Shown here piece after piece: positions 3,008-30,481 of a stretch of DNA of 34,326 bases (its first letter is position 1; each line of letters starts with the position of its first letter). This DNA is from Deltaproteobacteria bacterium (GTDB lineage: Bacteria; Desulfobacterota; GWC2-55-46; JAJCZF01). The stretch is taken from NCBI GenBank assembly GCA_029262475.1, contig JAJCZG010000014.1, positions 1 to 34,326 on the forward strand. The letters run 5' to 3'. The notes under the pieces were generated by a model. It worked only from the letters and a program-made list of their open reading frames with translations, ran no database searches and was not told the origin of the DNA. Made by a program: the position numbers and the translations under genes.

Positions 3008-4264
3008 ATGTTATCCGATCACTTGATAATAAATCTATTCCTGATACTTACAGTCGCCTGGGCCTTCGGGAGCCTCTTTGGTCGCTTCGGCCTACCCGTC
3101 GTTCTTGGAGAACTCACTGCGGGGCTGATCCTAGGCCCGGCGCTATTAGGGGTCATAAGCGGCTCAGAGCCTATAGAGTTCATGGCTGAGCTCGGCATTT
3201 TCTTCCTCATGTTCTACGCTGGGCTAGAGATGGACCCGGAAGAGCTTCTGGAACATATAAAGCCCGCAGTAATAGTTGCCCTAGGCGGCTTCGTGCTCCC
3301 ATTCGTGCTCGGATATTTCTTTACCAGGTTCTTTGGCGGCACGCAGTACCAGTCGCTCTTCATGGGCATGGGGTTATCGGTCACTTCACTCGCCGTTCAG
3401 GCGAGGATACTCCACGACATGCAGATACAGAAGACGAAGCTCGGACACATAATAATCGGCGCCGCCATAGCCGACGACATCATGGCGTTAATTGCCCTCT
3501 CTCTCCTCCTCGGGCTCGCCGAGAGCGGAAGCATCGAACCAAGAGTAGTCGCCTTCGTCCTATTTAAGGTAGTCGCCTTCTTCGGAGCTGTGATTCTCCT
3601 TAGCCACTTCGTCCTCGGAAGGCTTAACCTGCGCTTTGATACGGACGCCTCAAGGGACTTTACCTTCGCGCTCCTTTCCGCCCTCGTCCTGGCCTTCTTC
3701 GCCGAGCTCGCTGGGCTGCACCTTATTATCGGCGCTTTCGTCGCCGGACAGTTCGTAAGAAAGCTCGTGCGCGACCCGGAATCATTCGAGCATCTCAGGA
3801 GCCGGATCTACGCTCTAAGCTACGGCTTTCTAGCGCCGATCTTCTTCGTTACCCTCTCCTTCCACCTGCACCTGAGCTTCGAAGTATCTCTCTGGGTCTT
3901 TACCGGAGTAGTTACGGTCATCGCCATTATCGGTAAGCTCGTCGGCTGCGGACTCGGAGGCTACGTTAGCGGACACAGTTTCTGGGAATCCAATATCATA
4001 GGTTTTGGCATGAACGGGCGCGGCGCCGTGGAGCTCGTCGTCGCGATGGTCGTTATAAAATTAAGCGACGAGCTCCTGTTGGCCGGAAAGATAGCCGAAC
4101 CGCTCCTGACGACGGATCAATTCTCGGCGCTAATACTCATGGCCTTCATTACTACCTTCATCGCACCGATAACACTCAAGTGGGGCCTTAAGAAGGCGTG
4201 TCAAAACGACGAACACGCCGAGTTTTGCGTGCTCTGGGATAAGTACGGTAAAGGAAAAAAGTAG
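3008..4264 (+). CDS. CPA2-family cation:proton antiporter (Na+/H+ or K+/H+ exchanger)
   Basis: This inner-membrane antiporter exchanges Na+ or K+ for protons. The 418 residues are almost entirely hydrophobic, with roughly 12-13 membrane segments and the PF00999 pattern from the N-terminus (VVLGELTAGLILGP). The paired aspartates of electrogenic CPA2 carriers are visible at Asp156-Asp157 in AIADD. There is no C-terminal TrkA-N (RCK) domain, so it is the short NapA/KefB-core type rather than a full Kef channel. AAGGA is spaced 9 nt from the ATG. It has its own promoter and is flanked by gaps of 230 and 125 bp, so it is probably monocistronic. The transported ion cannot be read from sequence. Confidence 0.88.
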   Translation: MLSDHLIINLFLILTVAWAFGSLFGRFGLPVVLGELTAGLILGPALLGVISGSEPIEFMAELGIFFLMFYAGLEMDPEELLEHIKPAVIVALGGFVLPFVLGYFFTRFFGGTQYQSLFMGMGLSVTSLAVQARILHDMQIQKTKLGHIIIGAAIADDIMALIALSLLLGLAESGSIEPRVVAFVLFKVVAFFGAVILLSHFVLGRLNLRFDTDASRDFTFALLSALVLAFFAELAGLHLIIGAFVAGQFVRKLVRDPESFEHLRSRIYALSYGFLAPIFFVTLSFHLHLSFEVSLWVFTGVVTVIAIIGKLVGCGLGGYVSGHSFWESNIIGFGMNGRGAVELVVAMVVIKLSDELLLAGKIAEPLLTTDQFSALILMAFITTFIAPITLKWGLKKACQNDEHAEFCVLWDKYGKGKK

Positions 4265-5127: not shown

Positions 5128-7501
5128 AATACTCACTTCACTCGACAAGAAGTTACTTCGAGACACATGGAAGATGAAGGGGCAGTCGCTTGCAATCGCT
5201 CTCGTTATCGCAAGCGGGGTAGCTACCTATATAATGAGCCTCAGTACGCTAAATTCTCTGCAAGAGACGCAGGCCGCCTACTACGACAACTACAGGCTCG
5301 GCGACGTATTCGCCTCGTTAAAGCGCGCTCCTGAGAGTTTAAAGTCCCGTATAAGCAAGATACCCGGAGTGGAGAATGTATCAACACGGGTCGCCTCCGA
5401 GATACGCCTTGAAGTTACGGGCTTTTCAGAGCCGATAACCGGAAGACTCACCTCCATCTCCGACTCCCCCGGCTCCGCTGGCCCGCTCCTTAACAGGCTC
5501 TATCTAAAGGAAGGCCGTCTCGTTAAAGAGGGGACCTCCGGCGAGGTCGTTATAAGCAGGTCATTTTCCGAGGCGCATGACCTAAAGCCGGGAGATAAGC
5601 TAAAGGCCACGATCAACGGCAGACAAAAGTCGCTTGCAATAGTCGGAGTAGCCCTTTCGCCGGAGTATATCTACCAGATAAAACCCGGGAGCCTGATACC
5701 CGACTTCGAACGCTACGCGATTATATGGATGGGCATAACCCCCATGAGGGCGGCCTTTGATATGGAGGGGGCCTTTAACGACGTCGTTCTTTCTACGGCG
5801 CCTAAGGCTAATATCGCAGAGATAATAGACCGCCTGGACGATATCCTCGACCCCTACGGCGGGCTCGGCTCCTACGGCAGAAAGGACCAGCTGTCGAACC
5901 GCTATCTATCCGAGGAATTTAAGATGCTCTCGCAGATGGCGACCATCTTTCCCGTGATATTCCTGGGAGTTGCCGCTTTTCTCCTAAATGTCGTAATGAC
6001 GAGGCTCGTAAGCACGCAGCGCGAGCAGATCGGGCTCCTTAAGGCATTCGGCTACAGGAACATCGACATTGCGCTTCATTTCATTAAATTCGTTTTTCTG
6101 GTAATGGCCGTCGGCCTTACCGGAGGTATCATAGCTGGAATATGGCTCGGGCGAAACCTTAGTGAAATGTATATGGTCTTCTACCGCTTTCCGTTCATAA
6201 CCTACGAGCTCCGGCCTTCGGTAATAGCGAGTGCGGCGCTTATAACCTCTATCGCGGTACTTACCGGCACCCTCTTCGCCATCCGGAGGGCTTCGGCGAT
6301 GCCGCCAGCCGAGGCAATGCTCCCGGAGCCTCCGGTTAGCTACCGCGAGACGATAGTAGAGAGGCTCGGGCTAAAGAATCTCTTTTCGCAGCCTGGGCGT
6401 ATGATCATCAGGCACATCGAAAGACGGCCCGTAAAGAGCGCGCTATCTGTAATAGGTATAGGGTTCGCGTGCGCCATTATGATGATGGGTACCTACTTCG
6501 ACGACTCGGTCGATATGATGGTCGAGAACTTTGCGCTTTCAAACAGGGAGGATATAACCGTCACCTTTACGGAGCCCGCGTCGACCAAGGCCCTGTACGA
6601 ACTCATGGCTCTTCCCGGAGTAGAGTACGCAGAGCCCTTCAGAACGGTCCCGGCAAGGTTCGTCTACGGGCACCGGAGCTACCGTGCCGCAGTGGAGGGC
6701 ATACCGGCAGAGGGGGAGCTTAGCCTGCTCTTAAATGAAGAGATGAAGCAGATAAGTATACCCGGCGACGGTATAGTCCTCACAGACCACCTCGGGGGAA
6801 TACTCGGCGTTAGCCCCGGTGACATTCTAACGGTAGAAACGCTCGAAGGGGACAGGCGTGTGCGCGAGGTGATGGTCTCCGCGCTCATAAGCGAGTTCAT
6901 CGGTGTATCCGCATATATGGAGATAGGCGCTCTAAATAGGTTCATGGGCGAGGGAAACGTAATAAGCGGCGTTAATCTCGATATCGACAGTGAATACCGG
7001 GGGAGCATAAACAGGCGCCTTAACGAGACCCCGAGGGTCGCGGGTACTGACGATAAGCTCGTTAGAATCCAGAACGTCTACGACACGATGGGTGAACAGA
7101 CCGCTATCTTTACCTTCTTCATAACTATCCTCGCCGGGACGATTGCCTTCGGCGTGGTATATAATAGCGCTCGCATTGCGCTATCCGAGAGGTCGAGGGA
7201 GCTGGCGAGCCTTAGGGTTCTCGGCTTTACAAGGGGGGAGATTTCGTTTATCCTTCTTGGAGAGCAAGCGGCACTGACGCTCGCAGCGATACCGGTTGGT
7301 TTCCTGCTTGGCCGATGGTTATGCGCGGGGCTTAACGCCTCGCTCCAGACGGATCTCTTCAGGATTCCTCTGGTGCTTAATGCCGACACATACGCATTCG
7401 CCGCCGTCATCGTTTTAGTATCGGCCTGCATCTCAGGGCTTATCGTACGTAGAAAGCTCGACCACCTCGACCTGGTCGAGGTCCTTAAAGCGAGGGAATA
7501 G
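5111..7501 (+). CDS. FtsX-like ABC transporter permease, two-domain (796 aa)
   Basis: The membrane subunit of the exporter. After an N-terminal membrane segment (about 24-44) comes a large periplasmic MacB-like domain, then a first FtsX domain with three membrane segments (about 270-395). A second membrane anchor (about 440-460) leads to another periplasmic domain and a second FtsX domain (about 665-790). This duplicated layout is typical of approximately 800-residue DUF214/FtsX permeases that pair with a LolD-like ATPase. GTG at 5111 is preceded by AAGAAGG at 6 nt. The 9-bp gap to the adaptor gene supports a single operon. The substrate is unknown; lipids, peptides or small toxic compounds are all exported by relatives. 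Confidence 0.9.
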
Positions 7502-7510
7502 AAAGTTTCC

Positions 7511-8749
7511 ATGAATACTAAAAGAATCGTAATCATAATTATAATCGCCGTCCTGGTAGTAGCGGCGCTCATCTACGGCTACAGGCCGGAGCCGGTAGCT
7601 GTTGACGTCTATACGGCGCGGCGGGGACCCATGCGTTTTGTAATTGAAGAGGAGGGTAAGACGCGCGTAACCGACCGTTTTGTGGTGAGCGCCCCGGTCT
7701 CCGGGTTTACGAGGCGCGTAGCCTTCGACGCCGGAGACACGGTAAAGAAGGGCGAGGTGCTCGTAGAGATAGAGCCGCGCCGTTCTATCATTTTGGACCC
7801 TCGCTCAAAGGCCGAGGCACACTCTAGGGTAAAGGCCGGCGAGGCGGCCTTGCTCGCGGCTGGTGAGAGGACCGTGGCGCTTGGCGCAGAGGCAAAGTAC
7901 TACGCAAGCGAATTAAAACGCCTCACCGGTCTGCTAAAAGATGGTTTTATCTCAGAGGGCGACTACGAGCGGGCCACTACTATGAATGACCGTGCGGCGG
8001 CGGAGCTTAGAAGCTCTACCTTTGCTGAAGACGTCGCTCGCTACGAGCTTCTTACCGCGAAGACGGCGCTTAGATTCTCGACCGGTACTGTAACCGGAAC
8101 GGATCAGGCCGACGGCGCGGGTATAGCGAAAAAGAAGGCGGAGCGCCTTGAGCCCGTTAGTATTAAGTCGCCGGTCTCCGGCAGGATTCTAAGGATACAC
8201 AAAAAGAGCGAGGGCGCGGCGGCGGAGGGCGCGATGCTCTTTGACATAGGCGACCCGGCGAGCCTTGAGGTCGAGGTTGAACTCCTCTCGGCAGATTCGG
8301 TCAGGGTACGGGCCGGGACGGATGTGATATTTAGAGACTGGGGCGGCGTGGGGGAGCTTAAAGGCAAGGTCCGCCTAATAGAGCCAGCGGGCTTTACCAA
8401 GGTATCGGCCTTAGGCGTTGAAGAGCAAAGGGTGCTCGTTATAAGTGATATCACCTCGCCTCCCAAAGAGTGGGGGCGCCTCGGAGACGGCTACCGCGTA
8501 GAGGCGGGCTTTATCCTCTGGCAGGCAGAAGATTTACTTCAAGTACCCGCTAGCGCTCTCTTTAAGGCCGGAGATGATAGCTGGGCCGCCTTCGCAGTGG
8601 AGAACGGTCGCGCAATTCTAAAGCCAGTAGAGATAGGCAGGAAGAACGGCTTATTTACCGAAGTTAGCAAAGGCATCTCAGAAGGAGAAGAGGTAATCGT
8701 CCACCCCGACCTGAAGATAGAAGACGGGACGAGGGTAAGGCTGAGATAG
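7511..8749 (+). CDS. HlyD/MacA-type periplasmic adaptor (membrane fusion protein)
   Basis: This protein links an inner-membrane pump to an outer-membrane channel. It has one N-terminal anchor (about 5-23), a first half of the lipoyl/barrel-sandwich domain (about 50-100), a helical hairpin (about 105-200), the second barrel-sandwich half (about 215-245, SPVSGRILRI), and beta-barrel and membrane-proximal domains to residue 412. No TolC-like gene is in the window, so the outer-membrane partner is encoded elsewhere. The last 16 residues (VHPDLKIEDGTRVRLR) are encoded a second time about 650 bp downstream with mainly silent changes, marking local duplication. With the two preceding genes it makes a MacAB-like export system. 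Confidence 0.88.
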   Translation: MNTKRIVIIIIIAVLVVAALIYGYRPEPVAVDVYTARRGPMRFVIEEEGKTRVTDRFVVSAPVSGFTRRVAFDAGDTVKKGEVLVEIEPRRSIILDPRSKAEAHSRVKAGEAALLAAGERTVALGAEAKYYASELKRLTGLLKDGFISEGDYERATTMNDRAAAELRSSTFAEDVARYELLTAKTALRFSTGTVTGTDQADGAGIAKKKAERLEPVSIKSPVSGRILRIHKKSEGAAAEGAMLFDIGDPASLEVEVELLSADSVRVRAGTDVIFRDWGGVGELKGKVRLIEPAGFTKVSALGVEEQRVLVISDITSPPKEWGRLGDGYRVEAGFILWQAEDLLQVPASALFKAGDDSWAAFAVENGRAILKPVEIGRKNGLFTEVSKGISEGEEVIVHPDLKIEDGTRVRLR

Positions 8750-8798
8750 CGCACCGGATCATAGCAAGGCCGCGCGCGCATGGAAAGGTGGTAAGACT

Positions 8799-9269
8799 AT
8801 GGAGACCGGAAGCGTTATTCAGGAAGCAATGTCTAAAGACAGAGGTAGCGGAAAGTTGTTCTTGGCCTTCGCGGTTCTTCTAACCGCTCTCTTTGTATTT
8901 TCACTGGGTGTAGCTGAAGCGGCGGAGCAGGGGCGGCGCTCACCAACGATTATGAAGAAGGTGCCGACCGGGGGCGGCACTCTAGCGCCCTTGATCATTG
9001 AGTGTCCACAGGATCTCCATGTGACGAACGTAAATATCGACTCTACGGCTGCCGCACCGAGCGGGTGGCAACCGAAAGGCTATCCAACCGGCTATCAATC
9101 CCTGACCCTTGTAAGACATTCGCCGCACTCCGTCCTCTCCGGCAAGCTGTGGTGCTCTTACGCGAAGAGCAGCCTGCCGACGTCCCTTACTATAACCGGG
9201 ATAAGTAAGCCGGTGCCAGCCGGACGGACGTGCACGCCTATCACTGGCTATAAATTCTCCTGCCAGTAG
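8799..9269 (+). CDS. Small secreted four-cysteine protein, function unknown
   Basis: I do not recognise a named family. The 156-residue product has a hydrophobic stretch at about 19-41 ending in VAEA, consistent with a Sec signal peptide cleaved near residue 41. The mature part is about 115 residues with four cysteines (69, 119, 145, 155), enough for two disulfides, and a proline/threonine/glycine-rich sequence. AAAGGTGG lies 9 nt before ATG 8799. A second ATG at 8829 would also keep the signal. It follows the exporter operon by 49 bp in the same direction and ends in a small hairpin. It sits between the hlyD end and a second copy of that end, so it may have been inserted there. Whether it is linked to the exporter is open. 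Confidence 0.7.
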   Translation: METGSVIQEAMSKDRGSGKLFLAFAVLLTALFVFSLGVAEAAEQGRRSPTIMKKVPTGGGTLAPLIIECPQDLHVTNVNIDSTAAAPSGWQPKGYPTGYQSLTLVRHSPHSVLSGKLWCSYAKSSLPTSLTITGISKPVPAGRTCTPITGYKFSCQ

Positions 9270-9287
9270 GCACAACAGTGTGCTTTT
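9270..9287 (+). terminator. Short hairpin with T4 tract after the secreted protein gene
   Basis: GCACA (9270-9274) pairs with TGTGC (9279-9283) around ACAG, followed by TTTT. It starts one base after the TAG stop. With a 5-bp stem it is at best a weak intrinsic terminator. Confidence 0.4.
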
Positions 9288-9294
9288 AATTCGC

Positions 9295-9335
9295 GGAGCG
9301 TGGCCGGGCAGTTTCCCGGTGCCGCGCTACGCTGG
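9295..9335. repeat. Imperfect GC-rich inverted repeat
   Basis: AGCG-TGGC-CGGG pairs with CCCG-GTGCC-GCGCT around a CAGTTT loop, with small bulges. No T tract follows, so this looks more like a folded intergenic element than a terminator. It lies between the two hlyD-tail copies. Confidence 0.4.
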
Positions 9336-9348
9336 GAAGAGTGATCTC

Positions 9349-9399
9349 GTCCACCCCGACTTGAAGATTGAAGACGGAACGAGGGTACGGTTAAGGTAG
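9349..9399 (+). pseudogene. Duplicated 3' end of the hlyD adaptor gene
   Basis: The segment encodes VHPDLKIEDGTRVRLR followed by TAG, identical in protein to the end of the adaptor gene at 8699-8749 but with several synonymous differences. Upstream of it the match fades within a few codons, and there is no start or export signal, so it is a gene fragment. Silent divergence shows the copies are not a very recent duplication. It may be the tail of a second, homologous operon copy or a recombination scar. Confidence 0.75.
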
Positions 9400-9418
9400 G
9401 GGCATTAGTGTGGTTCTG

Positions 9419-9432
9419 ATTCGCACAGCTTT
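9419..9432 (+). repeat. 14-bp direct repeat, left edge of restriction-modification cassette
   Basis: ATTCGCACAGCTTT is repeated perfectly at 11639-11652. The base composition switches from GC-rich to AT-rich immediately after it. It may be a target-site duplication or a recombination junction. Confidence 0.7.
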
Positions 9433-9575
9433 AACAATTCTGAAATTGAAATAATAAGTTATCTTTGGTATTATCGCATTTAAGCTTGAGGCTTAAAAAT
9501 TTACAATATATATTATTAAACATTGCTAAGGTTTTTAATGGTTTAAGAAAGTTGATTGGTTTGCAGGAGTTGAGA

Positions 9576-10535
9576 ATGGATAAGTTACACTGTGTCGAAA
9601 TTTGTGCGGGGGCCGGAGGTCAAGCTCTAGGGCTTGAAGGGGCAGGTTTTGAACCTGATGCACTAATTGAGATTGATAATGCTTGTTGTAATACTCTTAG
9701 ATATAATAGGCCGCTCTGGAATGTTATAGAAGAAGATCTTAATAATTTCAATGGCAATCCATATAAAGGGATAGATCTTTTAGCAGGAGGTGTTCCTTGC
9801 CCTCCCTTTACTAAAGCCGGTAAACAACTGGGGAAGGATGATGAACGCGACCTATTCCCTCAGGCAATCCGTTTGGTTGACGAATGTCGTCCAAGGATTG
9901 TAATGCTCGAAAATGTACGAGGGTTTTTGGATGCAGTCTTTGAAGATTACCGCTGTAATCTAAAACGGCAATTGGAAAAAATGGGCTACATAACAGAGTG
10001 GAGACTGTTAAATGCGTCAGATTATGGTGTTTCTCAGTTAAGACCACGCGTTGTAATAGTCGCTATTAGAAAAGATTTATCGGAGCACTTCTCTTGGCCC
10101 AAACCAAATGAACACAACCCCGTAACAGTTGGAGAACTCCTATACGATCAAATGTTATCAGGTGGCTGGAAAGGTGCCAAAAAGTGGAGAAAGCAGGCAG
10201 ACGAAATTGCACCAACCATTGTCGGTGGTTCAAAAAAACATGGTGGGCCAGATTTAGGGCCAACACGTGCAAAACGTGCTTGGGCAACCCTTGGTGTAGA
10301 TGGTATGGGAATAGCCAACGAGTCACCACAGCATGATTTTGTTGGTAATCCTAGACTTACAATTGAGATGGTTGCTAGATTACAGGGTTTTCCAGATGAC
10401 TGGTTTTTTACTGGTAAAAAAACACCTGCATACAGACAAATAGGCAATGCATTCCCTCCACCAGTCGCTAAAGCGGTTGCCTCAGAAATTAGTAGATGTC
10501 TAACGCATAAGAAGTTTCACGCAGTGGCAAGTTAA
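9576..10535 (+). CDS. DNA (cytosine-5-)-methyltransferase
   Basis: This enzyme transfers a methyl group from SAM to cytosine C5 in a specific DNA site. Conserved motifs are in canonical order: motif I CAGAGG (10-15), motif IV with the catalytic PC (74-75, PCPPF), motif VI ENV (112-114), motif VIII QLRPR (154-158), a target-recognition region (about 175-255), motif IX around R260 and E264, and motif X QIGNAFPPP (288-296). ATG 9576 has GGAG about 6 nt upstream and gives 319 residues. The open frame upstream is AT-rich leader and not coding-like. The gene is markedly AT-rich relative to its neighbours, a sign of horizontal transfer. The HNH gene follows after 9 bp, consistent with a type II system. 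The recognition site cannot be read from sequence. Confidence 0.93.
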   Translation: MDKLHCVEICAGAGGQALGLEGAGFEPDALIEIDNACCNTLRYNRPLWNVIEEDLNNFNGNPYKGIDLLAGGVPCPPFTKAGKQLGKDDERDLFPQAIRLVDECRPRIVMLENVRGFLDAVFEDYRCNLKRQLEKMGYITEWRLLNASDYGVSQLRPRVVIVAIRKDLSEHFSWPKPNEHNPVTVGELLYDQMLSGGWKGAKKWRKQADEIAPTIVGGSKKHGGPDLGPTRAKRAWATLGVDGMGIANESPQHDFVGNPRLTIEMVARLQGFPDDWFFTGKKTPAYRQIGNAFPPPVAKAVASEISRCLTHKKFHAVAS

Positions 10536-10544
10536 GGGCTCAAG

Positions 10545-11135
10545 ATGATTAGACCAAAAGGTGCTCGGACAAAGTTAAGAGAACATTTTCTTAATAATAT
10601 TGGCAAAGTAATGGACGCTAATGAATTGCGTGAAATAGCAGGTGGAATAAGTGAGTGGGCAAGGCGAGTTCGAGAACTTCGCACAGAAGAAGGTTATCAA
10701 ATTTTAACACATAATGACAAGAGCGAATTAAAGCCGGGGCAATATTTGCTCGAAGATTCAAAACCACAGCCAGCTTTTGAGCGTTCTATTTCCAAAGAAA
10801 CAAGAGCGTTTGTCTTAGATAGGAATGGCTTTACTTGCCAGATGTGCGGGGCAGTGGCGGGAGAGTTTCATCCTTACGATCCAAGAAGAAAAACACGTTT
10901 ACATATTGGGCATATTATTGATAAATCTCAAGGCGGAATTGATGAGCCGTCAAATTTACGAGCAATCTGTTCAGTGTGTAATGAAGGAGCATCTAACTTA
11001 ACTTTAGAAAGACCTTCTAACCTAAAACTATTGGCACAAATAAGACGAGCAAAAGGAAGTGACCAGGTTGAAGTCTTAAAGTGGTTAATTCGCAAATACC
11101 CAGAACAAGCAAATAAGTTCTTAGAAAGTGGATAA
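10545..11135 (+). CDS. HNH endonuclease, probable restriction enzyme partner
   Basis: A zinc-finger HNH (beta-beta-alpha-metal) nuclease of 196 residues. Paired CxxC motifs (Cys98/101 and Cys142/145) bracket the catalytic region LHIGHIIDKSQGG with His123, followed by Asn137 in PSNLRAICSVCN. The N-terminal 80 residues are basic and helical and may bind DNA. Its position 9 bp after the cytosine methyltransferase, with the same AT-rich composition, makes it the likely cognate restriction enzyme. That role is inferred from context and not from a recognisable specificity domain. AAGGG sits about 10 nt upstream of the ATG. Confidence 0.85.
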   Translation: MIRPKGARTKLREHFLNNIGKVMDANELREIAGGISEWARRVRELRTEEGYQILTHNDKSELKPGQYLLEDSKPQPAFERSISKETRAFVLDRNGFTCQMCGAVAGEFHPYDPRRKTRLHIGHIIDKSQGGIDEPSNLRAICSVCNEGASNLTLERPSNLKLLAQIRRAKGSDQVEVLKWLIRKYPEQANKFLESG

Positions 11136-11161
11136 ATTACAGTTAGAGAAAGAAACCGTGG

Positions 11162-11174
11162 TGGGCACTGCCCA
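11162..11174. repeat. Short inverted repeat TGGGCA-C-TGCCCA
   Basis: Six-base arms around one base lie in the 87-bp gap between the HNH gene and the next ORF. The core resembles the larger hairpin at 27445-27473 (TGGGC..GCCCA), so both may belong to a dispersed palindrome family. Confidence 0.4.
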
Positions 11175-11222
11175 TCTTTAGGCCAATGCGCCTGCAATAT
11201 AAATATAGTTAGCCAAAAGAAA

Positions 11223-11630
11223 ATGAGTTTTAAAAAAATTGAATACAAAGAATTAAACGCAAGACAAAAAGAAAACTACAACTTTCATCATGTGGCTGCT
11301 GTTTTAGTAGAATATGGGTTTGCTTGCTTGTGGCTAAACGATGATTGGCAAGGAGCTGATTTTATAGCTAACCATGTGGATGGTGAAGTCTTTTTAAAGG
11401 TTCAGCTAAAAGGCAGATTAACACTAGACAAAAAATATCGTGGGAAAAATATATTCGTAGTATTTAGAGAGAACAATCAGTGGTATCTTTACCCACATGA
11501 CGAGATGATGAAAAAATTATTAAAAAAAGGCTTCATGAAGGGTGCAAAAGCCTGGGATGAAAAAGGCAACTATAGCTGGGCACGTGTTCCGAAGACAATT
11601 CTAACAATTTTAAATAGCTATAAAATATAG
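11223..11630 (+). CDS. Putative PD-(D/E)XK-fold protein, third gene of the restriction cassette
   Basis: The 135-residue protein contains a GADF motif (Asp46) followed after about 14 residues by VQLKGR (Gln61-Lys63). That spacing matches the Asp...(E/Q)xK pattern of PD-(D/E)XK nuclease-like folds, in the QxK variant. The N-terminus (YKELNARQKENYNFH) is characteristic of a conserved family of small proteins often found near mobile or defence genes, which I recall as uncharacterised. No transmembrane or signal sequence is seen. AT-richness matches the two upstream genes, and the right-hand 14-bp repeat starts 9 bp after the stop. It may be a second nuclease, an accessory factor or a passenger. 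Nuclease activity is inference. Confidence 0.6.
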   Translation: MSFKKIEYKELNARQKENYNFHHVAAVLVEYGFACLWLNDDWQGADFIANHVDGEVFLKVQLKGRLTLDKKYRGKNIFVVFRENNQWYLYPHDEMMKKLLKKGFMKGAKAWDEKGNYSWARVPKTILTILNSYKI

Positions 11631-11638
11631 ATTGTAAC

Positions 11639-11652
11639 ATTCGCACAGCTTT
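11639..11652 (+). repeat. 14-bp direct repeat, right edge of restriction-modification cassette
   Basis: This is an exact copy of the repeat at 9419-9432. GC-rich host-like sequence resumes immediately to its right. Confidence 0.7.
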
Positions 11653-11718
11653 GCCACGCCTTACCCCGCGTAGAAGAGTGAAGAGCAAACCCTAAGCGCT
11701 GCATTGCGCGTATAAGGA

Positions 11719-11732
11719 GCACACTAGTGTGC
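11719..11732. repeat. 14-bp perfect palindrome after the ABC-2 permease stop
   Basis: GCACACTAGTGTGC abuts the stop codon of the minus-strand permease gene. It resembles the hairpin that abuts the stop of the secreted-protein gene (9270-9283). It may be a weak terminator or a member of the same small repeat family. Confidence 0.45.
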
Positions 11733-12524
11733 CTACTCTCCTACTTTTACCAGCAACCCCTTCTTTTTGATTGTCCTGAAGTTCCATGTGAAGAATAGAA
11801 TCGCTAGTATTATGTAGGCGACGTTCAGGCCCGCGGCCCAAAGTATTTCGTTTAATGGCAGAGCGCCGCCGCTTATGACGGCCCTTAGCCCTTCGAAGAC
11901 GTGCGAGGCGGGGATGAAGTGCGCGATGGTCTTTAGCGGCTCTGGGAGGACGGAGACCGGGTAGAAGACGGCGCTTACGGGCTGAAAGAGAAAGGCGATG
12001 CCCCAGGCCAAAACCTCGGCCTCCTGGCCGAAGCGGAGTATTATGCTCATCGTAACGATACCGACGGACCAGCCCATTATTATGAGGTTTGCGACAAGAG
12101 GAATTAGATCCATGCCGACGGTGAAGATATTAAAGGAATAGAGTATCCACGCGAGGCCGACCAGAACGACCGAGGCGAATATGAGCTTTAAGACACTTAC
12201 GAGCAGGAGCGAGAAGACGTACTCGGCAGGGGATATCGGGGAGATGAAGACGTTAAGAAGGTTCCTCGACCAGGAGTCTTCGAGAAACGATACGGATATG
12301 CCCTGCTGGCTCCGAAAGAGTATATCCCATAGTATGAGCGCGCCGATAAAGAAGGCGACGAAGTTCGGGAGGTCGCCCTTAAAGCGCATAAGGTAGATGC
12401 TTATAAAACCCCAGACGAGGAGGTCGAGTACCGGCCAGTAGAATATCTCCATGAGCCTCGGGAGGCTCCTCTTGTAGAGATAGAGGTGGCGTACGGTATA
12501 GGCGAGTATCCTGGATAAATTCAT
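11733..12524 (-). CDS. ABC-2 type transporter permease
   Basis: The membrane subunit of an export ABC transporter. About six membrane segments across 263 residues and a conserved FxP stretch (FLFQPVSAVFYPVSVLP) place it with the ABC2_membrane family that exports polysaccharides, lipids, drugs or antibiotics. It is the last gene of a three-gene minus-strand operon: the start codon is 6 bp past the stop of the cysteine-rich gene, and the ATPase lies upstream of that. The Shine-Dalgarno is weak (AAGGG at 4 nt, or GAGGAAG further out). The exported compound cannot be predicted. Confidence 0.85.
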   Translation of the reverse strand: MNLSRILAYTVRHLYLYKRSLPRLMEIFYWPVLDLLVWGFISIYLMRFKGDLPNFVAFFIGALILWDILFRSQQGISVSFLEDSWSRNLLNVFISPISPAEYVFSLLLVSVLKLIFASVVLVGLAWILYSFNIFTVGMDLIPLVANLIIMGWSVGIVTMSIILRFGQEAEVLAWGIAFLFQPVSAVFYPVSVLPEPLKTIAHFIPASHVFEGLRAVISGGALPLNEILWAAGLNVAYIILAILFFTWNFRTIKKKGLLVKVGE

Positions 12525-12530
12525 CGGCCC

Positions 12531-12980
12531 TTACGCTTCCTCTTCTTCTCCGTTACCGGGGAGTGTGAAGTTTGTCTTTATATTAAAACCCCTGGCGCGG
12601 AGTGTCTCGCTGTCTTCTCCCTTAAGCACCTTTCTTAACTCATTTTTAGCGACTTCGAGGTTTATTCCCTTAGCGGTAATCTGCTTTAATAGCATCTCGA
12701 AGAGCACCCTCTTTCTGTCGCCGATCTCACTGTCGTCTCGGCGCTTGAAGATCTCCGCACCGCATACGCAGTATTTCAAATGTTCCATCACCGCAAATTC
12801 GCTTCTTTGCAGGGCGACTTCAAGTACGGCGCGCCTCTTCATGGCATGAGTCGCCTCTAAAAAGCTCTCGGGGTCTTTGAAGCACTTTTTGCAGCTATTA
12901 CATGTAGCCGGGAACCTGGTCATTAAAACAACATAAAGTTGGTCCTGAATAGCTCTTAACCTGTTTCCATCGTCGGTCAA
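12531..12980 (-). CDS. Cysteine-rich protein encoded within an ABC exporter operon
   Basis: I do not recognise this 149-residue family. It carries CxxCxxC (Cys27, 30, 33) and, about 40 residues later, CxC (Cys71, 73), an arrangement suited to binding zinc or an iron-sulfur cluster. The remainder is charged and helical, ending in an acidic EEEEA tail; there is no signal peptide or membrane segment. The TTG start at 12980 is supported by AAGGAG 8 nt upstream. It lies 16 bp after the ATPase gene and 6 bp before the permease gene, so it is very likely co-expressed and may be an accessory or maturation factor. That function is inference from position. Confidence 0.7.
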   Translation of the reverse strand: MTDDGNRLRAIQDQLYVVLMTRFPATCNSCKKCFKDPESFLEATHAMKRRAVLEVALQRSEFAVMEHLKYCVCGAEIFKRRDDSEIGDRKRVLFEMLLKQITAKGINLEVAKNELRKVLKGEDSETLRARGFNIKTNFTLPGNGEEEEA

Positions 12981-12996
12981 TTTGTAAACTCCTTAT

Positions 12997-13731
12997 CTAG
13001 CCGTATGTCTTTCCGCGTGCGATCTTCAGGAAAACGTCATCGAGGCTAGACCCCGCGAAGTCTCTCATAATTTCTTCTGGCCTGCCCTGCGCCACGACCT
13101 TGCCTCTGTTCATAAATATCACCCTGTCGCAGAGCTCCTCGACCTCTTTCATATTGTGCGACGTATAGAGTATCGAGAGCCCGCGCTCCTCCTTGATTTC
13201 TTGAAGGAGGGAACGCGTCTTATCTGCAATATCAGGGTCGAGGCTCGCCGTCGGTTCGTCCAGAAAGAGCACCTTGGGGTCGTTTAAGAGGCTTTTGGCG
13301 AGAGAAACCCTGGTGATTTGCCCTGACGATAGCCTCCTCACAGGTACGTCGCGAAGCTCCTCTATCTCGAATTTTTTGAGGAGTTCGGTTATCTTCCTCT
13401 TCCGCTCCTTTACCTCGTAAAGCATGGCGAAGACCGTAAGGTTCTCCCAGACGGTCAGGGCGAATGGCATTGAGATATAAGATGAGGAGAAATTTGCCTT
13501 TGCCAGTATCTCCTGTCGGTGCTTTTTTATGTCAAGCCCGAAGATGCTGACACTGCCGCTCGTCGGCGTTGTGAGCCCGAGGAGCATTTGTAGGGTCGTC
13601 GTCTTCCCTGCGCCGTTTGGGCCGAGCAGGCCGAGTATCTCGCCCTCCATGAGCTCAAATGAAATACCATCCACGGCGCGTACACTACCGAAAACTTTTG
13701 TAAGCCCCTCTACCTGAAGGAGTTTCGTCAT
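12997..13731 (-). CDS. ABC-2 exporter ATP-binding protein with variant Q-loop and signature
   Basis: The cytoplasmic ATPase for the minus-strand exporter. Walker A is GPNGAGKTT (37-45), the signature is LSSGQ (134-138, Ser for the usual first Gly) and Walker B VLFLDE (154-159) is followed by PTASLDP. Where most relatives have a Q-loop glutamine, this protein has an NFSSSYISMPFALTVWENL region, apparently lacking the Gln. That suggests a distinct ABC-2 subfamily. The 244-residue length is normal. It is the first gene of the operon; the ATG has only a weak GGA-type Shine-Dalgarno. The 380-bp region beyond separates it from the divergent glyS. Confidence 0.88.
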   Translation of the reverse strand: MTKLLQVEGLTKVFGSVRAVDGISFELMEGEILGLLGPNGAGKTTTLQMLLGLTTPTSGSVSIFGLDIKKHRQEILAKANFSSSYISMPFALTVWENLTVFAMLYEVKERKRKITELLKKFEIEELRDVPVRRLSSGQITRVSLAKSLLNDPKVLFLDEPTASLDPDIADKTRSLLQEIKEERGLSILYTSHNMKEVEELCDRVIFMNRGKVVAQGRPEEIMRDFAGSSLDDVFLKIARGKTYG

Positions 13732-13930
13732 AAAAATAATTCCATTAGCGAACGTGTACCCCTATGGGTTAAAGAGCTGCCCGTATGCTTAGAGACGCCC
13801 CTGTTGGAGAATAAAAATTTAATATGAGCGCACAGTTACGGTGTGTGCGTGAAAAGAAATCTTTCGTAGTGATTGTAGGGCTTCCGGGTACTTCAGGCAC
13901 GTTTCAGTAACGGCGGTAAGTCCGTTGCTC

Positions 13931-13947
13931 TGTAAAAGTATTTTACA
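13931..13947. promoter_or_regulatory. Operator-like inverted repeat TGTAAAA-GTA-TTTTACA
   Basis: Seven-base perfect arms flank a 3-bp spacer. The right arm coincides with a candidate -35 (TTTACA). Dyads of this size between divergent genes often bind a dimeric regulator; none is encoded nearby. Confidence 0.35.
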
Positions 13948-14056
13948 ATTACTGGATTAATTTTATACCTTTTTGCTCTTAAAAACAAGCCTTGCCAGGC
14001 GTAATTAAAGGCCGGCAGGAAAAAGGCCGTAATAAAGGTTGAAAAATGCGCTATTT

Positions 14057-14084
14057 TTGATAAATTGAAGGTTTCCGGTATAGT
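14057..14084 (+). promoter_or_regulatory. Promoter for glyS
   Basis: TTGATA (14057-14062) and TATAGT (14079-14084) are separated by 16 bp. Predicted transcription starts near 14091, about 20 bp before the glyS ATG. Confidence 0.6.
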
Positions 14085-14111
14085 AAGCCGGACCCCCAAA
14101 AAGGAGAAGGC

Positions 14112-16214
14112 ATGTCTAATAGAGATTTTTTATTTGAGATAGGCACCGAAGAGATACCGGCCGGCTTTATACCAAGGGCGCTCTTAGAGATGGAGACGCG
14201 TTTTAAGCGCGCCTTGGAGAAGGCCCGGATTGAGTACGGAGAAATAGGTACGCTCGGCACGCCGAGGAGGCTTACGCTTACGATAAAGGCCCTATCGGAG
14301 ACGCAGCCCGAAACCAGCTTAGAGGTGCGCGGCCCGAAGGTCGAGGCTGCTTACGGTAAGGACGGAAACCCGACGAAAGCCCTTGAGGGTTTTGCGCGCG
14401 GTCAGGGCGTGGAGCTAACCGATATCGTTACTGTCGAGGCTAAGAAGGGGGCTCACGTTGTAGCGCGCAAGGTTGTAGAAGGCAAGGTGACGATGGATAT
14501 CCTCCCTGAGATACTATCGGCCGTGGTTACGGCAGAGCTATTTCCTAAAGCCATGCGGTGGGGCTCGGGGCGTACCGCCTTCGGCAGGCCGGTACACTGG
14601 ATCGTCGCTCTCTACGGCCCGGATACCGTGGACTTCGAGTACGCAGGCATAAAGAGCGGGAACCGTACGCGCGGGCACAGATTCCTCTCTAACTCTGGCG
14701 GTCCTGTGATAGTAAATGGTATCGACGACTACGCAGACGCTTTAAGAAACGAGTCGGTAATAGTAGACCCGGAGGAGCGGAGGACGATTATAATAGACGG
14801 CTTAAAGCATGAGGCCGACGCCGCAGGCGGGTGTCTCCTTCCCGACGAGGCGCTTATAGACGAGGTCGTAAACCTCGTGGAGTTCCCGGTAGTGCTAAGG
14901 GGCGGTTTCGATAAGAGCTTCCTCTCTCTTCCGAGAGAGGTAATAATAAACGCCATGCGCTCCCACCAGCGTTATTTTTCGCTAACCGACGATAAGGGCG
15001 CGCTCCTGCCGTACTTCCTTACCGTAGCCAATATCGCGGCCAAAGACCCGGAAGTAGTCATAAAGGGTAATGAGCGCGTTTTGAGGGCCAGGCTAAACGA
15101 CGCCAACTTCTACTTTGAGCATGATAAAAAGAAGCCGCTCTCCGAGTGGCTTAACGGTTTAAAGGGTGTAGTCTTTCAGGCGAAGCTCGGCACCAGCTAC
15201 GAGAAGGTCGAGCGCTTTACCGCACTTGCTTTAAAGATTGGCGAGTGGCTCGGCCATAAGGACATGAAAGGGCTAAAGCGTGCCTCTATGCTCTCAAAGG
15301 CCGACCTCGTTACCGGAGTGGTTATGGAATTCCCCAAACTCCAGGGTGTAATGGGTGGAGTTTATGCCGCGATTGACGGGGAAGGCGAAGAGGTAAGTAG
15401 CGCGGTAAGGGAGCACTACATGCCAGTTGCCGCAGGTGCGGAGCTGCCTTCTACAACGACCGGAGCGATAATAAGCATCGCCGATAAGATGGATACCATC
15501 GCCGGGTGTTTTGGCGTGGGGCTAATCCCAACCGGCGCTCAGGACCCGTACGCGCTTAGGCGAGCGGCTATCGGCATAATAGCGATAATTGTCGAGAAGG
15601 GGTTTCAAAACCTCTCTCTCGGCGAACTTATTGGAGCTTCCGTTGCGGGAATTGGTACAAAGCTAACGAGGGAGGGCTCGGAGGTAAAGGCCGATATAAA
15701 AGAGTTCTTTAAGGAAAGGCTTAAAAATCAACTCCTGGCCTCCGACCTCTCATTCGATGTGATAGACTCGGTTCTCTCTACTACTGACTGGGACGGGCTT
15801 GTAGATGCGGTAAAGAGAATACGGGCGCTGGAGGGCTTTAAGGGTAACCCGGATTGCGCGAGGCTCGTCATAGCCTTTAAGCGTGTAACAAATATCCTTA
15901 AGGGCGTGGAGCTCGCGGAGGGCACTGCGCAGAAGCCGGACGTTACGCTCTTTACCGACCCGAACGAAAGCACTTTAGCGGGCCTCTGCCAGAAGATAGC
16001 CCCGGAGATAGAGAAGCTCAGGGCCAAAGGCGACTACGAGGGGGTATTTAAAAAACTCACCTCTATAAAGGAGCCTATAGACGCCTTCTTTGACGAGGTA
16101 ATGGTAATGGTCGACGACGCGGCTGTAAGGGAAAACAGACTAAGACTCTTAAATTCAATACGCTCGCTTTACGTTACGACCGCTGACCTTTCGAAGCTGA
16201 CCACCGCTGAATAG
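14112..16214 (+). CDS. glyS: Glycyl-tRNA synthetase beta subunit
   Basis: The large subunit of the bacterial alpha2beta2 glycyl-tRNA synthetase, which recognises tRNA-Gly while the alpha subunit activates glycine. The 700 residues begin with the diagnostic FEIGTEEIP (7-15). They contain the family blocks RVLRARLNDANFYFE and PTGAQDPYALRRAA, and end in a DALR-type anticodon-binding region. The length is normal and the frame intact. AAGGAG is 5 nt from the ATG. In most bacteria glyQ lies immediately upstream, but here glyS has its own promoter and glyQ is nowhere in the window, so the alpha subunit must be encoded elsewhere. tRNA-Asn follows 165 bp downstream. Confidence 0.96.
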   Translation: MSNRDFLFEIGTEEIPAGFIPRALLEMETRFKRALEKARIEYGEIGTLGTPRRLTLTIKALSETQPETSLEVRGPKVEAAYGKDGNPTKALEGFARGQGVELTDIVTVEAKKGAHVVARKVVEGKVTMDILPEILSAVVTAELFPKAMRWGSGRTAFGRPVHWIVALYGPDTVDFEYAGIKSGNRTRGHRFLSNSGGPVIVNGIDDYADALRNESVIVDPEERRTIIIDGLKHEADAAGGCLLPDEALIDEVVNLVEFPVVLRGGFDKSFLSLPREVIINAMRSHQRYFSLTDDKGALLPYFLTVANIAAKDPEVVIKGNERVLRARLNDANFYFEHDKKKPLSEWLNGLKGVVFQAKLGTSYEKVERFTALALKIGEWLGHKDMKGLKRASMLSKADLVTGVVMEFPKLQGVMGGVYAAIDGEGEEVSSAVREHYMPVAAGAELPSTTTGAIISIADKMDTIAGCFGVGLIPTGAQDPYALRRAAIGIIAIIVEKGFQNLSLGELIGASVAGIGTKLTREGSEVKADIKEFFKERLKNQLLASDLSFDVIDSVLSTTDWDGLVDAVKRIRALEGFKGNPDCARLVIAFKRVTNILKGVELAEGTAQKPDVTLFTDPNESTLAGLCQKIAPEIEKLRAKGDYEGVFKKLTSIKEPIDAFFDEVMVMVDDAAVRENRLRLLNSIRSLYVTTADLSKLTTAE

Positions 16215-16379: not shown

Positions 16380-16455
16380 TCCCAGGTAGCTCAGCTGGCA
16401 GAGCGGGTGACTGTTAATCACCTTGTCGGGGGTTCGAATCCCTCCCTGGGAGCCA
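16380..16455 (+). tRNA. tRNA-Asn (anticodon GTT), CCA encoded
   Basis: The cloverleaf folds fully: a 7-bp acceptor stem (16380-16386 with 16445-16451), D arm GCTC/GAGC, anticodon stem GGTGA/TCACC around loop CTGTTAA with GTT at 16413-16415, a T arm with GGTTCGAATC, discriminator G16452 and encoded CCA (16453-16455). It is followed by an intrinsic terminator. Its 3' half and terminator recur at 30393-30481, which marks this gene as an integration site. Confidence 0.97.
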
Positions 16456-16497
16456 AATAAAATCAAAGGGTTACGGCTTATGTCGTAGCCCTTTTTT
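16409..16497 (+). repeat. attL-like 89-bp direct repeat (3' half of tRNA-Asn plus terminator)
   Basis: The segment from the anticodon stem through the T tract matches 30393-30481 at 88 of 89 positions; the single difference is G16450 versus A30434. Here it is part of the intact tRNA, as expected for the left end of an element integrated at a tRNA 3' end. Confidence 0.85.
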
Positions 16498-26235: not shown

Positions 26236-26382
26236 CCCCTCTACCGTTCCCCCTGAAAACGATAATTGACAGACCTTCCCGAGAAGTATATCTTTCCATG
26301 TATGATGAATTGCTATCTCTACGACCTCATACAGGCTGATATCTAATGCCCCACCTCTACTCACATAAAAGCTCCGGCTGGC
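26236..26382 (+). repeat. 147-bp direct repeat, copy 1 (promoter and start of a putative integrase gene)
   Basis: The segment matches 27473-27619 without gaps, with six mismatches that I counted. It includes TTGACA (26266-26271) 15 bp before TATATC (26287-26292) and an ATG at 26346 that opens MPHLYSHKSSGW in both copies. It appears to be the upstream region and first codons of a gene whose body is lost. Confidence 0.85.
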
Positions 26383-27444: not shown

Positions 27445-27473
27445 GGGTAGGGTGGGCGGTGCCCACCCTACCC
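27445..27473. repeat. 13-bp-arm perfect hairpin downstream of the DUF2934 gene
   Basis: GGGTAGGGTGGGC (27445-27457) pairs exactly with GCCCACCCTACCC (27461-27473) around GGT. There is no T tract, so it is more like a dispersed palindromic repeat than a classical terminator. It abuts the second 147-bp repeat. Confidence 0.75.
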
Positions 27474-27619
27474 CCCTCTACCGTTCACCCTGAAAACGAT
27501 AATTGACAGACCTTCCAGGGAAGTATATCTTTCCATGTATGATGAATAGCTATCTCTATGACCTCATACAGGCGGATATCTAATGCCCCACCTCTACTCA
27601 CATAAAAGCTCCGGCTGGC
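27473..27619 (+). repeat. 147-bp direct repeat, copy 2
   Basis: This copy aligns at a constant offset of 1237 bp to 26236-26382. Its ATG (27583) opens the same MPHLYSHKSSGW, then diverges and stops at 27631-27633. The SRAP gene starts 12 bp after that stop. Confidence 0.85.
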
Positions 27620-27645: not shown

Positions 27646-28308
27646 ATGTGCGGACGCTACGTAAATACGACTCCCCTTGAGGGGCTGATAGACGAGTTCG
27701 ATGTCGATGCACCGCCTCTGGAGACCCACCCCGACTATAACGTCGCTCCGGGGCGCAACGTGCTCGCCGTCATAAACGACGGCAAGAATCGCCTCGTGGA
27801 GTGCAGGTGGGGCCTCATCCCCCACTGGGCAAAGGAGGCATCGGTCGGGTACAAGATTATAAACGCCCGCTCCGAGACGGTCGCAGAAAAGGCTTCATAT
27901 AAGATGCCTTTCCGGAAGCACCGCTGCCTCGTCGTTGCAGACGGCTTCTTCGAGTGGAGGAAAGACGGAAAGCGAAAGGCGCTATTTTACTTCTTCCTCA
28001 AGTCCGGCAAACCATTCGGCTTCGTCGGCCTCTATAGCCATTGGACATCGCCAGAAGGCGAGAAGGTATGTACATGTACGATACTCACTACCGAGGCTAA
28101 TGATGTCGTGCCCCATGTCCACGACCGTATGCCTGTTATAGTAGTAAAGGACAGCGAGAGCCTGTGGCTTGATCCTTCCATTGAGGACTACGCCTCGCTC
28201 TCGCCTGTAATGAAGCCCTACGAACCATCATTGATGAGTTCATACGAGGTCTCGACGATAGTCAACTCCCCGGCCAACAACACGCCTGAGAATATAAAGA
28301 CTCTCTGA
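27646..28308 (+). CDS. SRAP/HMCES (YedK) family abasic-site DNA-protein crosslinking protein
   Basis: SRAP proteins covalently trap abasic sites in single-stranded DNA through the N-terminal Cys. Cys2 follows the initiator Met in MCGRY, and the other active-site residues are in place: Asn73 in NARSE, Glu103 in DGFFEWR and His159 in HVHDRMP, close to the positions in E. coli YedK. The 220 residues are full length. Only a weak ribosome site precedes the ATG. It begins immediately after the second integrase-like repeat; SRAP genes are frequent on mobile DNA, although here composition is host-like. It is a confident family call. Confidence 0.92.
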   Translation: MCGRYVNTTPLEGLIDEFDVDAPPLETHPDYNVAPGRNVLAVINDGKNRLVECRWGLIPHWAKEASVGYKIINARSETVAEKASYKMPFRKHRCLVVADGFFEWRKDGKRKALFYFFLKSGKPFGFVGLYSHWTSPEGEKVCTCTILTTEANDVVPHVHDRMPVIVVKDSESLWLDPSIEDYASLSPVMKPYEPSLMSSYEVSTIVNSPANNTPENIKTL

Positions 28309-28572
28309 TAAACTGCGGCTTCCTTCCTGTACTCTGCACTCATGGTATGCTCTTAGTAGATGTTTATTACTACTGTAATTCAATGGATACAGCAGATTGA
28401 CTTGGCTTAACCTGTATGCTGTTGTAATTTATCTATAATTAAATTTACACACCAGAGTAGATTGATTATGATTCGCCTTATACAGACGTTATAATTATTG
28501 TTAGAATTAAACAAGTATCACAGAATTTAATATAGACAATAGACTTAGTCACTTAATTTCGGGATATCCAAA
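28309..28572. other. AT-rich intergenic region with 19-bp repeat copy 2
   Basis: No gene is evident. The 19-bp repeat shared with 16601-16619 lies at 28322-28340, after which composition becomes AT-rich. A TATAAT (28434-28439) and a TTGACT (28397-28402) are present, but their spacing does not make a convincing promoter. Confidence 0.5.
28322..28340 (+). repeat. 19-bp direct repeat, copy 2
   Basis: The sequence is identical to 16601-16619. It lies 14 bp after the SRAP stop, at the onset of the AT-rich stretch. Confidence 0.7.
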
Positions 28573-28701
28573 ATGACAGACACAGATGCAGAAGGCATAT
28601 CGTCTATTGGCCCCGCTCCCGCAGAAGAGGAGCGAAACAACCGCACGAACAACAAACTGAAACCCAAAAATCCATTTTTGCAAAGATTGAGTCGTTACTA
28701 A
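28573..28701 (+). pseudogene. Displaced 5' end of the membrane protein gene (frameshift)
   Basis: ATG 28573 opens a 42-codon frame (MTDTDAEGISSIGPAPAEEE...) that ends at TAA 28699-28701. Inserting one A in the A5 run at 28666-28670 would join it to the frame of the downstream membrane protein, giving ...LKPKKSIFAKIESLLKL. The hydrophilic start would make a natural cytoplasmic N-terminus. It is probably one gene broken by a 1-base deletion or a sequencing error. Confidence 0.55.
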
Positions 28702-28724
28702 AGCTCGCTGGAATCGCTGGTACT

Positions 28725-29939
28725 TTGACCGCGCTGATGGGGTTTTCTGCGGTTCATGTACACTTCTCGCGCCTCAATGTACCGTCACATTTCATCGACT
28801 ATCAGGTCGTGCTGAAGGCTGGCATGATACCAGCGATTTTACTAGCCATCCTTGCAACCTATGTCGTATGGACTTCTCGTAGCATTCGGGAAAACGCTAA
28901 ATTGAGTGCTCTGCAGATTATGCCGATCTTGCCACTCATGTTTCTTAGTATACTGTTTTTAATCATCGGAACTCTATTCTCTCTGCTTTTGTTAGTCTGG
29001 TGCATTGCGTGGGTGATCCATTTCCCGATAGATGCGACCTTTGGTATTTCACTGTCCACCCGCCAATTATTCTACGCAGGAATAGGCTTGTTTCTCGTTG
29101 CCGGGATTCTGCAGTTGATTTATAGGAAATTCTTTGGCCTGACAAAGCGGAGGTGGGGTCGTTTATTTAGTAAACCGGAGTTCATGCCGCATGGCTTTCA
29201 GAACTTTGTTGCGAATGGACTAAGATTTAAATTTCTAGATTCCTCCTGTGCTTTCACTGAAGAAGTAATGCAAAGAAAGGTGACACGTCAAGCAAATGGC
29301 GAACAGAACACAGTACTGCCCAAAAAACAGAAAAACTACGAGATGAGCCCCAAGGTGTGGCTATACTTACTTCCACTATGCTGGTTAATAATGCCATCTG
29401 CTTTCATTGCATTGTTTTTTGCCACAAAGACAGTCATCTACCTTTGGGATCCTGCACTTTCCCAGCAGCTCCCTTCTACTAACCTTTTGTTATGGAGCGG
29501 ATTGATTGCAGGCGTATTTTATAGTCTCTCCGTCACTGCTGCAGTGTTTGACCTTGATGGTATCCTGAATTCTCAAAATAGGGGAATCCGCCTTATCGGA
29601 ATTACAGAAGGTGCTGCTGCACTTCTTATCACTTATGTGATCTTTGCCACACTGTACACTACAAAGATATATCCTAACCTCGGTAGAACTTGGGGCGGTG
29701 GAAGGCCAGCATCTATTTCCATTTGCCTAGCGAAAGACGACATTCCTAATGCAGATATCCTGAAAGAACTACTTCCGCACGCAAGCATAGGTACGTCAAA
29801 AGACACATTGTGTATTGATTCAGTATTTTTAGTACACTCAACCAAGGAGAATTCCATAATTATTGATAAGATGGACGGGGCACCCTCAGGCATGGTGGTT
29901 TCCAATGACCGGATCCAGTTGATCACCTGCCCGAGATGA
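28725..29939 (+). CDS. Multi-pass membrane protein of unknown function
   Basis: I do not recognise this family. From the TTG at 28725 it has 404 residues with about seven hydrophobic segments: one near the start, three between about 25 and 150, and three between about 205 and 310. A soluble C-terminal domain of about 90 residues follows, with several beta-like stretches and three cysteines. The frame is open well upstream of 28725 and probably joins the ATG at 28573 after a one-base frameshift. AT-rich codon use differs from the metabolic genes to the left, suggesting separate acquisition. It is the last gene before the right-hand att-like repeat, so it may be cargo of an integrated element. 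Confidence 0.65.
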   Translation: MTALMGFSAVHVHFSRLNVPSHFIDYQVVLKAGMIPAILLAILATYVVWTSRSIRENAKLSALQIMPILPLMFLSILFLIIGTLFSLLLLVWCIAWVIHFPIDATFGISLSTRQLFYAGIGLFLVAGILQLIYRKFFGLTKRRWGRLFSKPEFMPHGFQNFVANGLRFKFLDSSCAFTEEVMQRKVTRQANGEQNTVLPKKQKNYEMSPKVWLYLLPLCWLIMPSAFIALFFATKTVIYLWDPALSQQLPSTNLLLWSGLIAGVFYSLSVTAAVFDLDGILNSQNRGIRLIGITEGAAALLITYVIFATLYTTKIYPNLGRTWGGGRPASISICLAKDDIPNADILKELLPHASIGTSKDTLCIDSVFLVHSTKENSIIIDKMDGAPSGMVVSNDRIQLITCPR

Positions 29940-30392
29940 GACCAGTGCGAAGTTATAGTAAATTCTTAATGAAGATACAAAAGACGTTCTAATCAGGCAC
30001 GGTGTGTATTTACCCCTCCCCATTCCAACATGGCAAGCGGATCCGTACCAAGCGATTCATTGTAGGGCAACTCAGATTGATTGGGGAGTGAAGATAGGCC
30101 CATAGGCCTATGGTGGAGTTGGTTTCTGACGGTAATAGATAACCCTCAACCCTACTCTAAGGGGTTTGTTTGTAGGTGTACTGCGCACCTGTAGTAAATT
30201 GGTTTCTGTTGATTAACGGATGTAATCGGCATTCGCTCTGACAAAGAGAGGTCAAGTTGCGACTGTATAGTAAATTGTATAGTGAATGCTCGGTAATATA
30301 CGGTAACGTACGGTAAAGGCTCTCTTCTGAAATGGCTAATTTCGTAATGAAATAGCAACGTACGGTAAATGGTCCTGCCCTTATTAATATAC
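29940..30392. other. Repeat-rich non-coding region left of the att-like copy
   Basis: No plausible gene is seen. The region has a 14-bp perfect palindrome CCATAGGCCTATGG (30100-30113), a segment like 26183-26230 (30140-30180), a 12-bp near-tandem pair (TGTATAGTAAAT then TGTATAGTGAAT, from 30264), and CGGTAA iterons. Such short repeats beside a tRNA-derived core resemble integrase arm-binding sites. Confidence 0.55.
30291..30368 (+). repeat. CGGTAA iterons
   Basis: CGGTAA occurs at 30291, 30301 and 30311 with an exact 10-bp period, and again at 30363. Further copies lie at 30130 and, in the related upstream segment, at 26180. One-turn helical spacing suggests protein binding on one face of the DNA. 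Confidence 0.6.
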
Positions 30393-30481
30393 GACTGTTA
30401 ATCACCTTGTCGGGGGTTCGAATCCCTCCCTGGAAGCCAAATAAAATCAAAGGGTTACGGCTTATGTCGTAGCCCTTTTTT
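30393..30481 (+). repeat. attR-like 89-bp direct repeat (tRNA-Asn 3' half plus terminator)
   Basis: This displaced copy of 16409-16497 lacks the 5' half of the tRNA, so it is not a functional tRNA gene. One substitution (A30434) breaks the acceptor stem sequence. Its direction matches that of the intact tRNA, which is the classical layout for the distal end of an element inserted at a tRNA 3' end. Confidence 0.85.
30449..30481 (+). terminator. Duplicated intrinsic terminator within attR-like repeat
   Basis: This is the same stem as at 16465-16494, followed by T6 after a GCCC. It would still terminate plus-strand transcription leaving the island. Confidence 0.75.

Follow-up and report, generated by a model that had tools for sequence, protein, structure and literature searches.

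A Type II-like restriction–modification cassette between two copies of a 14-bp host sequence, probably a target duplication

The window, by which we mean the whole analysed stretch of 34,326 nucleotides, carries what we consider a horizontally acquired Type II-like restriction–modification (R-M) cassette, and its 2.2-kb foreign block lies between two copies of a 14-bp sequence that is probably host target DNA. Target duplications at the edges of R-M units were described in 2000, and the way in which such units enter a genome with no transposase of their own is still unsettled. The features of the cassette and of its immediate surroundings are compiled in Table 1.

Table 1. Features of the R-M cassette and its junctions (positions refer to the window)
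Feature	Position	Strand	Basis
Dispersed host intergenic repeat copy (AGTGTGNTTNTNATTCGCNNAGC), broken by the insertion	9407..9429	+	16 genome copies at up to 2 mismatches
14-bp direct repeat, left copy (target sequence)	9419..9432	+	Position, genome-wide uniqueness
AT-rich cassette leader, 5′ of the methyltransferase	9433..9575	+	Composition
C5 DNA cytosine methyltransferase	9576..10535	+	PF00145 E=4.9e-68; TIGR00675 E=1.3e-47; PADLOC DruM2/MTase_II models
HNH nuclease, presumed cognate restriction enzyme	10545..11135	+	PF01844 E=3.4e-9; PADLOC REase_II E=4.5e-11
P3, third small gene, 135 aa, probable PD-(D/E)XK-like	11223..11630	+	GADFIA...QLKGR motif; weak fold matches
14-bp direct repeat, right copy (duplicated target)	11639..11652	+	Uniqueness; first half of host repeat missing
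Hairpin-repeat unit of the host, probably the ABC-2 gene's terminator; lies in host DNA right of the insertion	11655..11737	-	Hairpin block recurs in the genome; layout as in aligned host units

An earlier note on this DNA had reported a perfect 14-bp direct repeat around the cassette, and this is confirmed: ATTCGCACAGCTTT occurs at 9419–9432 and 11639–11652, and these are the only two copies in the genome (2,395,542 bases, allowing up to one mismatch). The note had also placed the edges of the AT-rich block exactly at the 14-mers, which is true to within about 15 bp but not to the base. A maximum-likelihood change-point fit with an order-2 model delimits the foreign segment as 9404–11656 and a fit on GC only as 9404–11641, while the edges lying within 2 log units cover 9389–9412 and 11639–11664. 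The GC content is 0.39 within the segment as compared to 0.54 outside. An exact 14-mer common to both 300-bp junction neighbourhoods appeared in about 0.1% of simulated trials (roughly 1 in 1000), and 2.6% of the mismatched pairs formed from flanks at other loci reach an alignment score of 14, a looser measure. Given the latter value, the 14-bp repeat taken alone is suggestive and not conclusive.

The bases themselves can be traced to the host. Positions 9407–9429 (AGTGTGGTTCTGATTCGCACAGC) are a member of a dispersed hairpin repeat, 16 copies of which are present in the genome at up to two mismatches and for which a reversed-pattern control returned no copy, and bases 1–11 of the left 14-mer are the last 11 bases of this member. 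The left 14-mer is thus internal to a host repeat, which runs on into the left flank, where the host sequence ends with ...GGCATTAGTGTGGTTCTG directly before it (left of 9419). At the other junction, the 14-mer is preceded by cassette sequence in place of the expected AGTGTGGTTTTA, the first half of the host repeat, and the host sequence to its right (beyond 11652) begins with GCCACGCCTTACCCC.... Aligned members of the host repeat consist of the hairpin followed by TTTTAATTCGCGCAGC or near variants. Both copies of the 14-mer have in common the variable bases AC and the TTT that follows, a combination that the other listed members of the repeat lack, which argues that the copies derive one from the other and are not two independent repeat members. 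Since the left copy sits within the host repeat and the right copy is devoid of the preceding half, the 14 bases most likely represent host target sequence that was duplicated at insertion.

Members of this hairpin or terminator repeat family are found at 9277–9299 and 9407–9429 as well as on contigs C13, C86, C52 and others; on C13 they are arranged in tandem with a spacing of 106 bp between a peptide-release-factor-like and a thyX-like gene. A known structured RNA at the insertion site was considered and rejected. A search of 47 further genomes of the order for the joined flanks, i.e. an empty site, gave no such junction and short repeat matches only, and in the genome itself further matches to the joined site were confined to hairpin blocks. 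The flanking HlyD-like and ABC-2 genes are conserved but never occurred together in the loci of relatives that were examined, hence synteny did not yield an empty site either.

The left flank contains another odd duplication, which speaks for a complex history of this intergenic region. The earlier note had mentioned neither this duplication nor the membership of the 14-mer in a host repeat. The sequence at 9347–9399 repeats the 3′ end of the HlyD-like gene (8697–8749) with 87% identity, 650 bp downstream of it, and a secreted-protein open reading frame of unassigned function (8799–9269) lies in between. All differences between the copies are synonymous, leaving the encoded peptide VHPDLKIEDGTRVRLR-stop unchanged, and this conservation marks 9347–9399 as the remnant of a once functional homologue. 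It could be what is left of a deleted tandem gene or an imported gene end, and the duplication was probably an event separate from the cassette insertion at the same spot. Other repeats are located farther away in the window. A tRNA-Asn(GTT) gene at 16380–16497 is matched 14 kb off, at 30393–30481, by 89 bp that repeat its 3′ part and the sequence downstream with 99% identity; this pair resembles the termini of a tRNA-targeted island, and no integrase was recognised among the few open reading frames scanned. The region 28000–31000 is of lower GC content, and 26236–26382 and 27473–27619 form a 147-bp direct repeat with 96% identity and a distance of 1.2 kb.

Profile searches and the open reading frames identified the gene content that the earlier note had given, namely genes of a C5 methyltransferase and an HNH nuclease followed by a third small one. 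Again in agreement with the note, the cassette showed no transposase or integrase; its two flanking genes revealed none either. The methyltransferase, whose start at ATG 9576 was picked by alignment with relatives (the listed open reading frame opens with TTG at 9465), contains the motifs PCPPF, ENV and GNAFPPP and exceeds the cut-offs of PF00145 and TIGR00675. It is nearest to models of the DruM2/MTase_II group of PADLOC; no other Druantia genes are contained in the cassette. The HNH match likewise lies above the Pfam cut-off, and the assignment of this protein as an IscB RNA-guided nuclease was rejected, as it reaches 49 bits against a cut-off of 175 in NF040563 and matches in the HNH part only.

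The third gene, P3, stops 8 bp short of the right 14-mer and matched no significant family in profile searches. It possesses a conserved GADF...QLKGR motif with D46...Q61-L-K63 conserved, and its structural model (pLDDT 70) gave weak matches, the best to Hjc (E=0.02) and others to RecU and EcoRV, from which a PD-(D/E)XK fold appears probable. Homologues of P3 adjoin methyltransferase genes on Paracoccus plasmids and viral contigs, and a search of phages and viral contigs with P3 alone yielded none. At three such loci (L127, L128 and L172, on Paracoccus plasmids and a viral contig), the homologue has a large methyltransferase on one side and a DEAD/DEAH helicase together with a GIY-YIG-type protein on the other, a neighbourhood that possibly represents an uncharacterised defence operon.

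When compared to Type II R-M systems that combine a C5 methyltransferase with an HNH enzyme, the cassette shares the adjacent genes in fixed order and orientation, the methyltransferase being located directly upstream of the HNH gene in 80 of the 80 best HNH relatives. These originate from bacterial genomes of many phyla, and their HNH proteins are 73–83% identical to that of the window. The difference lies in the third gene, which is P3 in the window and Vsr in 12 of the 80 relatives, whereas P3 accompanies none of the 80 module copies examined. Vsr, a companion of C5 methyltransferases, resembles P3, with its probable nuclease fold, in being a small gene directly downstream; however, P3 matches no Vsr model and carries the D...QLK motif instead. 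The methyltransferase–HNH pair is a widespread mobile module. Of 395 genomes of the phylum, 3 contain it, and this rarity indicates that it was acquired; the genome under study holds a single copy. A tree of both proteins groups the window with Cyanobacteriota, Pseudomonadota and one Hydrogenedentota row (support 96/90), apart from the Syntrophobacterales copy of its own phylum (L057, on the same contig as G290/L136). Gain by horizontal transfer is the plain reading of these data. A search of E. coli genomes for the module returned one partial plasmid match to the methyltransferase only.

Other copies of the module exhibit junctions of several kinds. Direct repeats with a score of at least 20 within 300 bp surround the module at 7 of 79 loci, as compared to 0.03 expected from mismatched flank pairs. 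At L089, the repeat comprises 63 bp with 98% identity (3907–3969 and 5601–5663) and coincides with the 3′ end of pyrE, and at L106 it comprises 205 bp with 92% identity (3703–3904 and 5611–5815) and coincides with the 3′ end of pth; L070, L072 and L111 have repeats of 121–129 bp that are noncoding or hairpin-rich, and L071 has one of 26 bp over the start of citD (gene names were read from translations). In the L106 copies the reading frame is kept and 6 of 9 changed codons are synonymous, by manual count on the alignment, which suggests that one copy was formerly a working gene elsewhere. From this pattern, some 'target duplications' may in fact be imported gene ends. A different junction is seen in the G290 genome of the same phylum (L136, about 5558–7815), where a module with Vsr is bounded by inverted ends, GGTAGTGT.CTA.TT, complementary at 14 of 16 positions, and by an 8-bp duplication. 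One genus-mate (L155) has no cassette and a 114-bp stretch at that place, two others (L153 and L154) have a different, SDR-like gene there, and single ends of the GGTAGTGT.CTA.TT type occur elsewhere in the G290 genome and in genus-mates. All of these junction kinds resemble described classes of R-M mobility.

Units that duplicate their target were reported by Nobusato et al. 2000 and Furuta et al. 2010, whose work is summarised in PMC3874152 and PMC3031569; both sources describe R-M insertion with target duplications, short or long. According to the review PMC3874152, a short target duplication goes along with imperfect inverted repeats in some units, and others generate long, variable target duplications on the order of 100 bp. 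With these the cassette has in common that it encodes no transposase of its own, shows a direct repeat of host target at its edges and is located between host genes. It differs from the long-duplication class, with repeats on the order of 100 bp (PMC3874152), in that its repeat measures 14 bp, from the short-duplication class in that its ends lack inverted repeats beyond chance, and from the described units in general by having three genes, the third of which is unusual. The earlier note had proposed an R-M insertion with a long target duplication; the foreign, sporadic cassette and the host-derived repeat give good support to insertion with a target duplication, while 'long' does not quite apply to 14 bp. 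The window hence contains an R-M insertion of a known general kind that fits neither duplication class exactly. As to tRNA-targeted integrative elements, no tRNA lies within 6000–15000 and neither the cassette nor its flanking genes include an integrase.

Alternatives to a duplicated target have to be weighed against these observations. The repeats might be attL and attR, left by site-specific integration of the tyrosine-recombinase or another type, or by a short-homology crossover of a circle that bore the 14-mer. Such a crossover would likewise leave direct repeats lacking inverted ends, one plasmid-borne module adjoins a tyrosine recombinase gene, and the repeats flanking L089 and L106 are the 3′ ends of pyrE and pth, the L106 copies differing largely at synonymous sites as if one had been imported from a functional gene. 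However, no integrase is present in the cassette or its flanking genes and no tRNA at the site, and as the 14-mer is explained as host sequence, its presence in the circle would be a coincidence; we thus regard this account as unlikely. The cassette might also be the passenger of a transposon with decayed inverted-repeat ends, mobilised by a transposase acting in trans. This receives some backing from the G290 copy, for which the inverted ends, the 8-bp duplication, the single ends elsewhere in that genome and its genus-mates, and the genus-mate without a cassette have been described above. The window cassette shows no comparable ends, and 14 bp exceeds most transposon duplications, which are shorter; this explanation appears quite unlikely.

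Chance was considered as well, in which case the shared 14-mer would be coincidental and the cassette would have entered by ordinary illegitimate or homologous recombination. Exact 14-mers between long flank windows of unrelated loci are expected in 0.36 of 73 cases, and the window's score of 14 belongs to the 2.6% background of the loose alignment; on such statistics the repeat is short enough for a non-negligible role of chance. The location of the 14-mers at both compositional edges, their uniqueness in the genome and the match to the host repeat on the left side only speak against it, making coincidence highly improbable. Lastly, the cassette might be a transposase-free mobile element of which the HNH enzyme or P3 makes the staggered cut with a preference for host hairpin repeats, thereby creating the 14-bp duplication. 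We deem this scenario very unlikely; that nucleases of the cassette took part in its insertion is conceivable but finds no support.

Under the preferred reading of a duplicated host target, insertion would have started from a cut with a stagger of about 14 bp, or from a short-homology event to the same effect, in the downstream part of the host hairpin repeat, within a gene-free intergenic stretch between convergent transcripts, and repair would have copied the 14 bp onto both sides of the insert. The inserting enzyme would have been supplied from elsewhere, because none is encoded in the cassette. Target duplication is weakened by the lack of inverted repeats at the cassette ends, by the negative search for an empty site in the 47 genomes of the order, by the non-negligible chance of a 14-bp repeat on loose statistics and by the complex history to which the second duplication in the left flank points. 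An insertion point in the downstream portion of such a dispersed hairpin repeat is reminiscent of REP-like intergenic repeats serving as targets, with the difference that the window provides a single case and no sign of a preference for the repeat. Judging from family knowledge, the methyltransferase would protect a specific sequence and the HNH enzyme would cut the same sequence when unmethylated, with P3 as a putative accessory nuclease-fold protein.

The predicted Type II activity would confer defence against phages and render the cassette hard to lose. Cell killing upon loss of the R-M genes is known for some Type II systems, and the cassette may be retained for this reason. For the window, repeats inside the same genome allow the duplicated bases to be attributed to the host, and the module, occurring in many phyla with at least three kinds of junction, constitutes a convenient family for comparing the junctions of R-M units.
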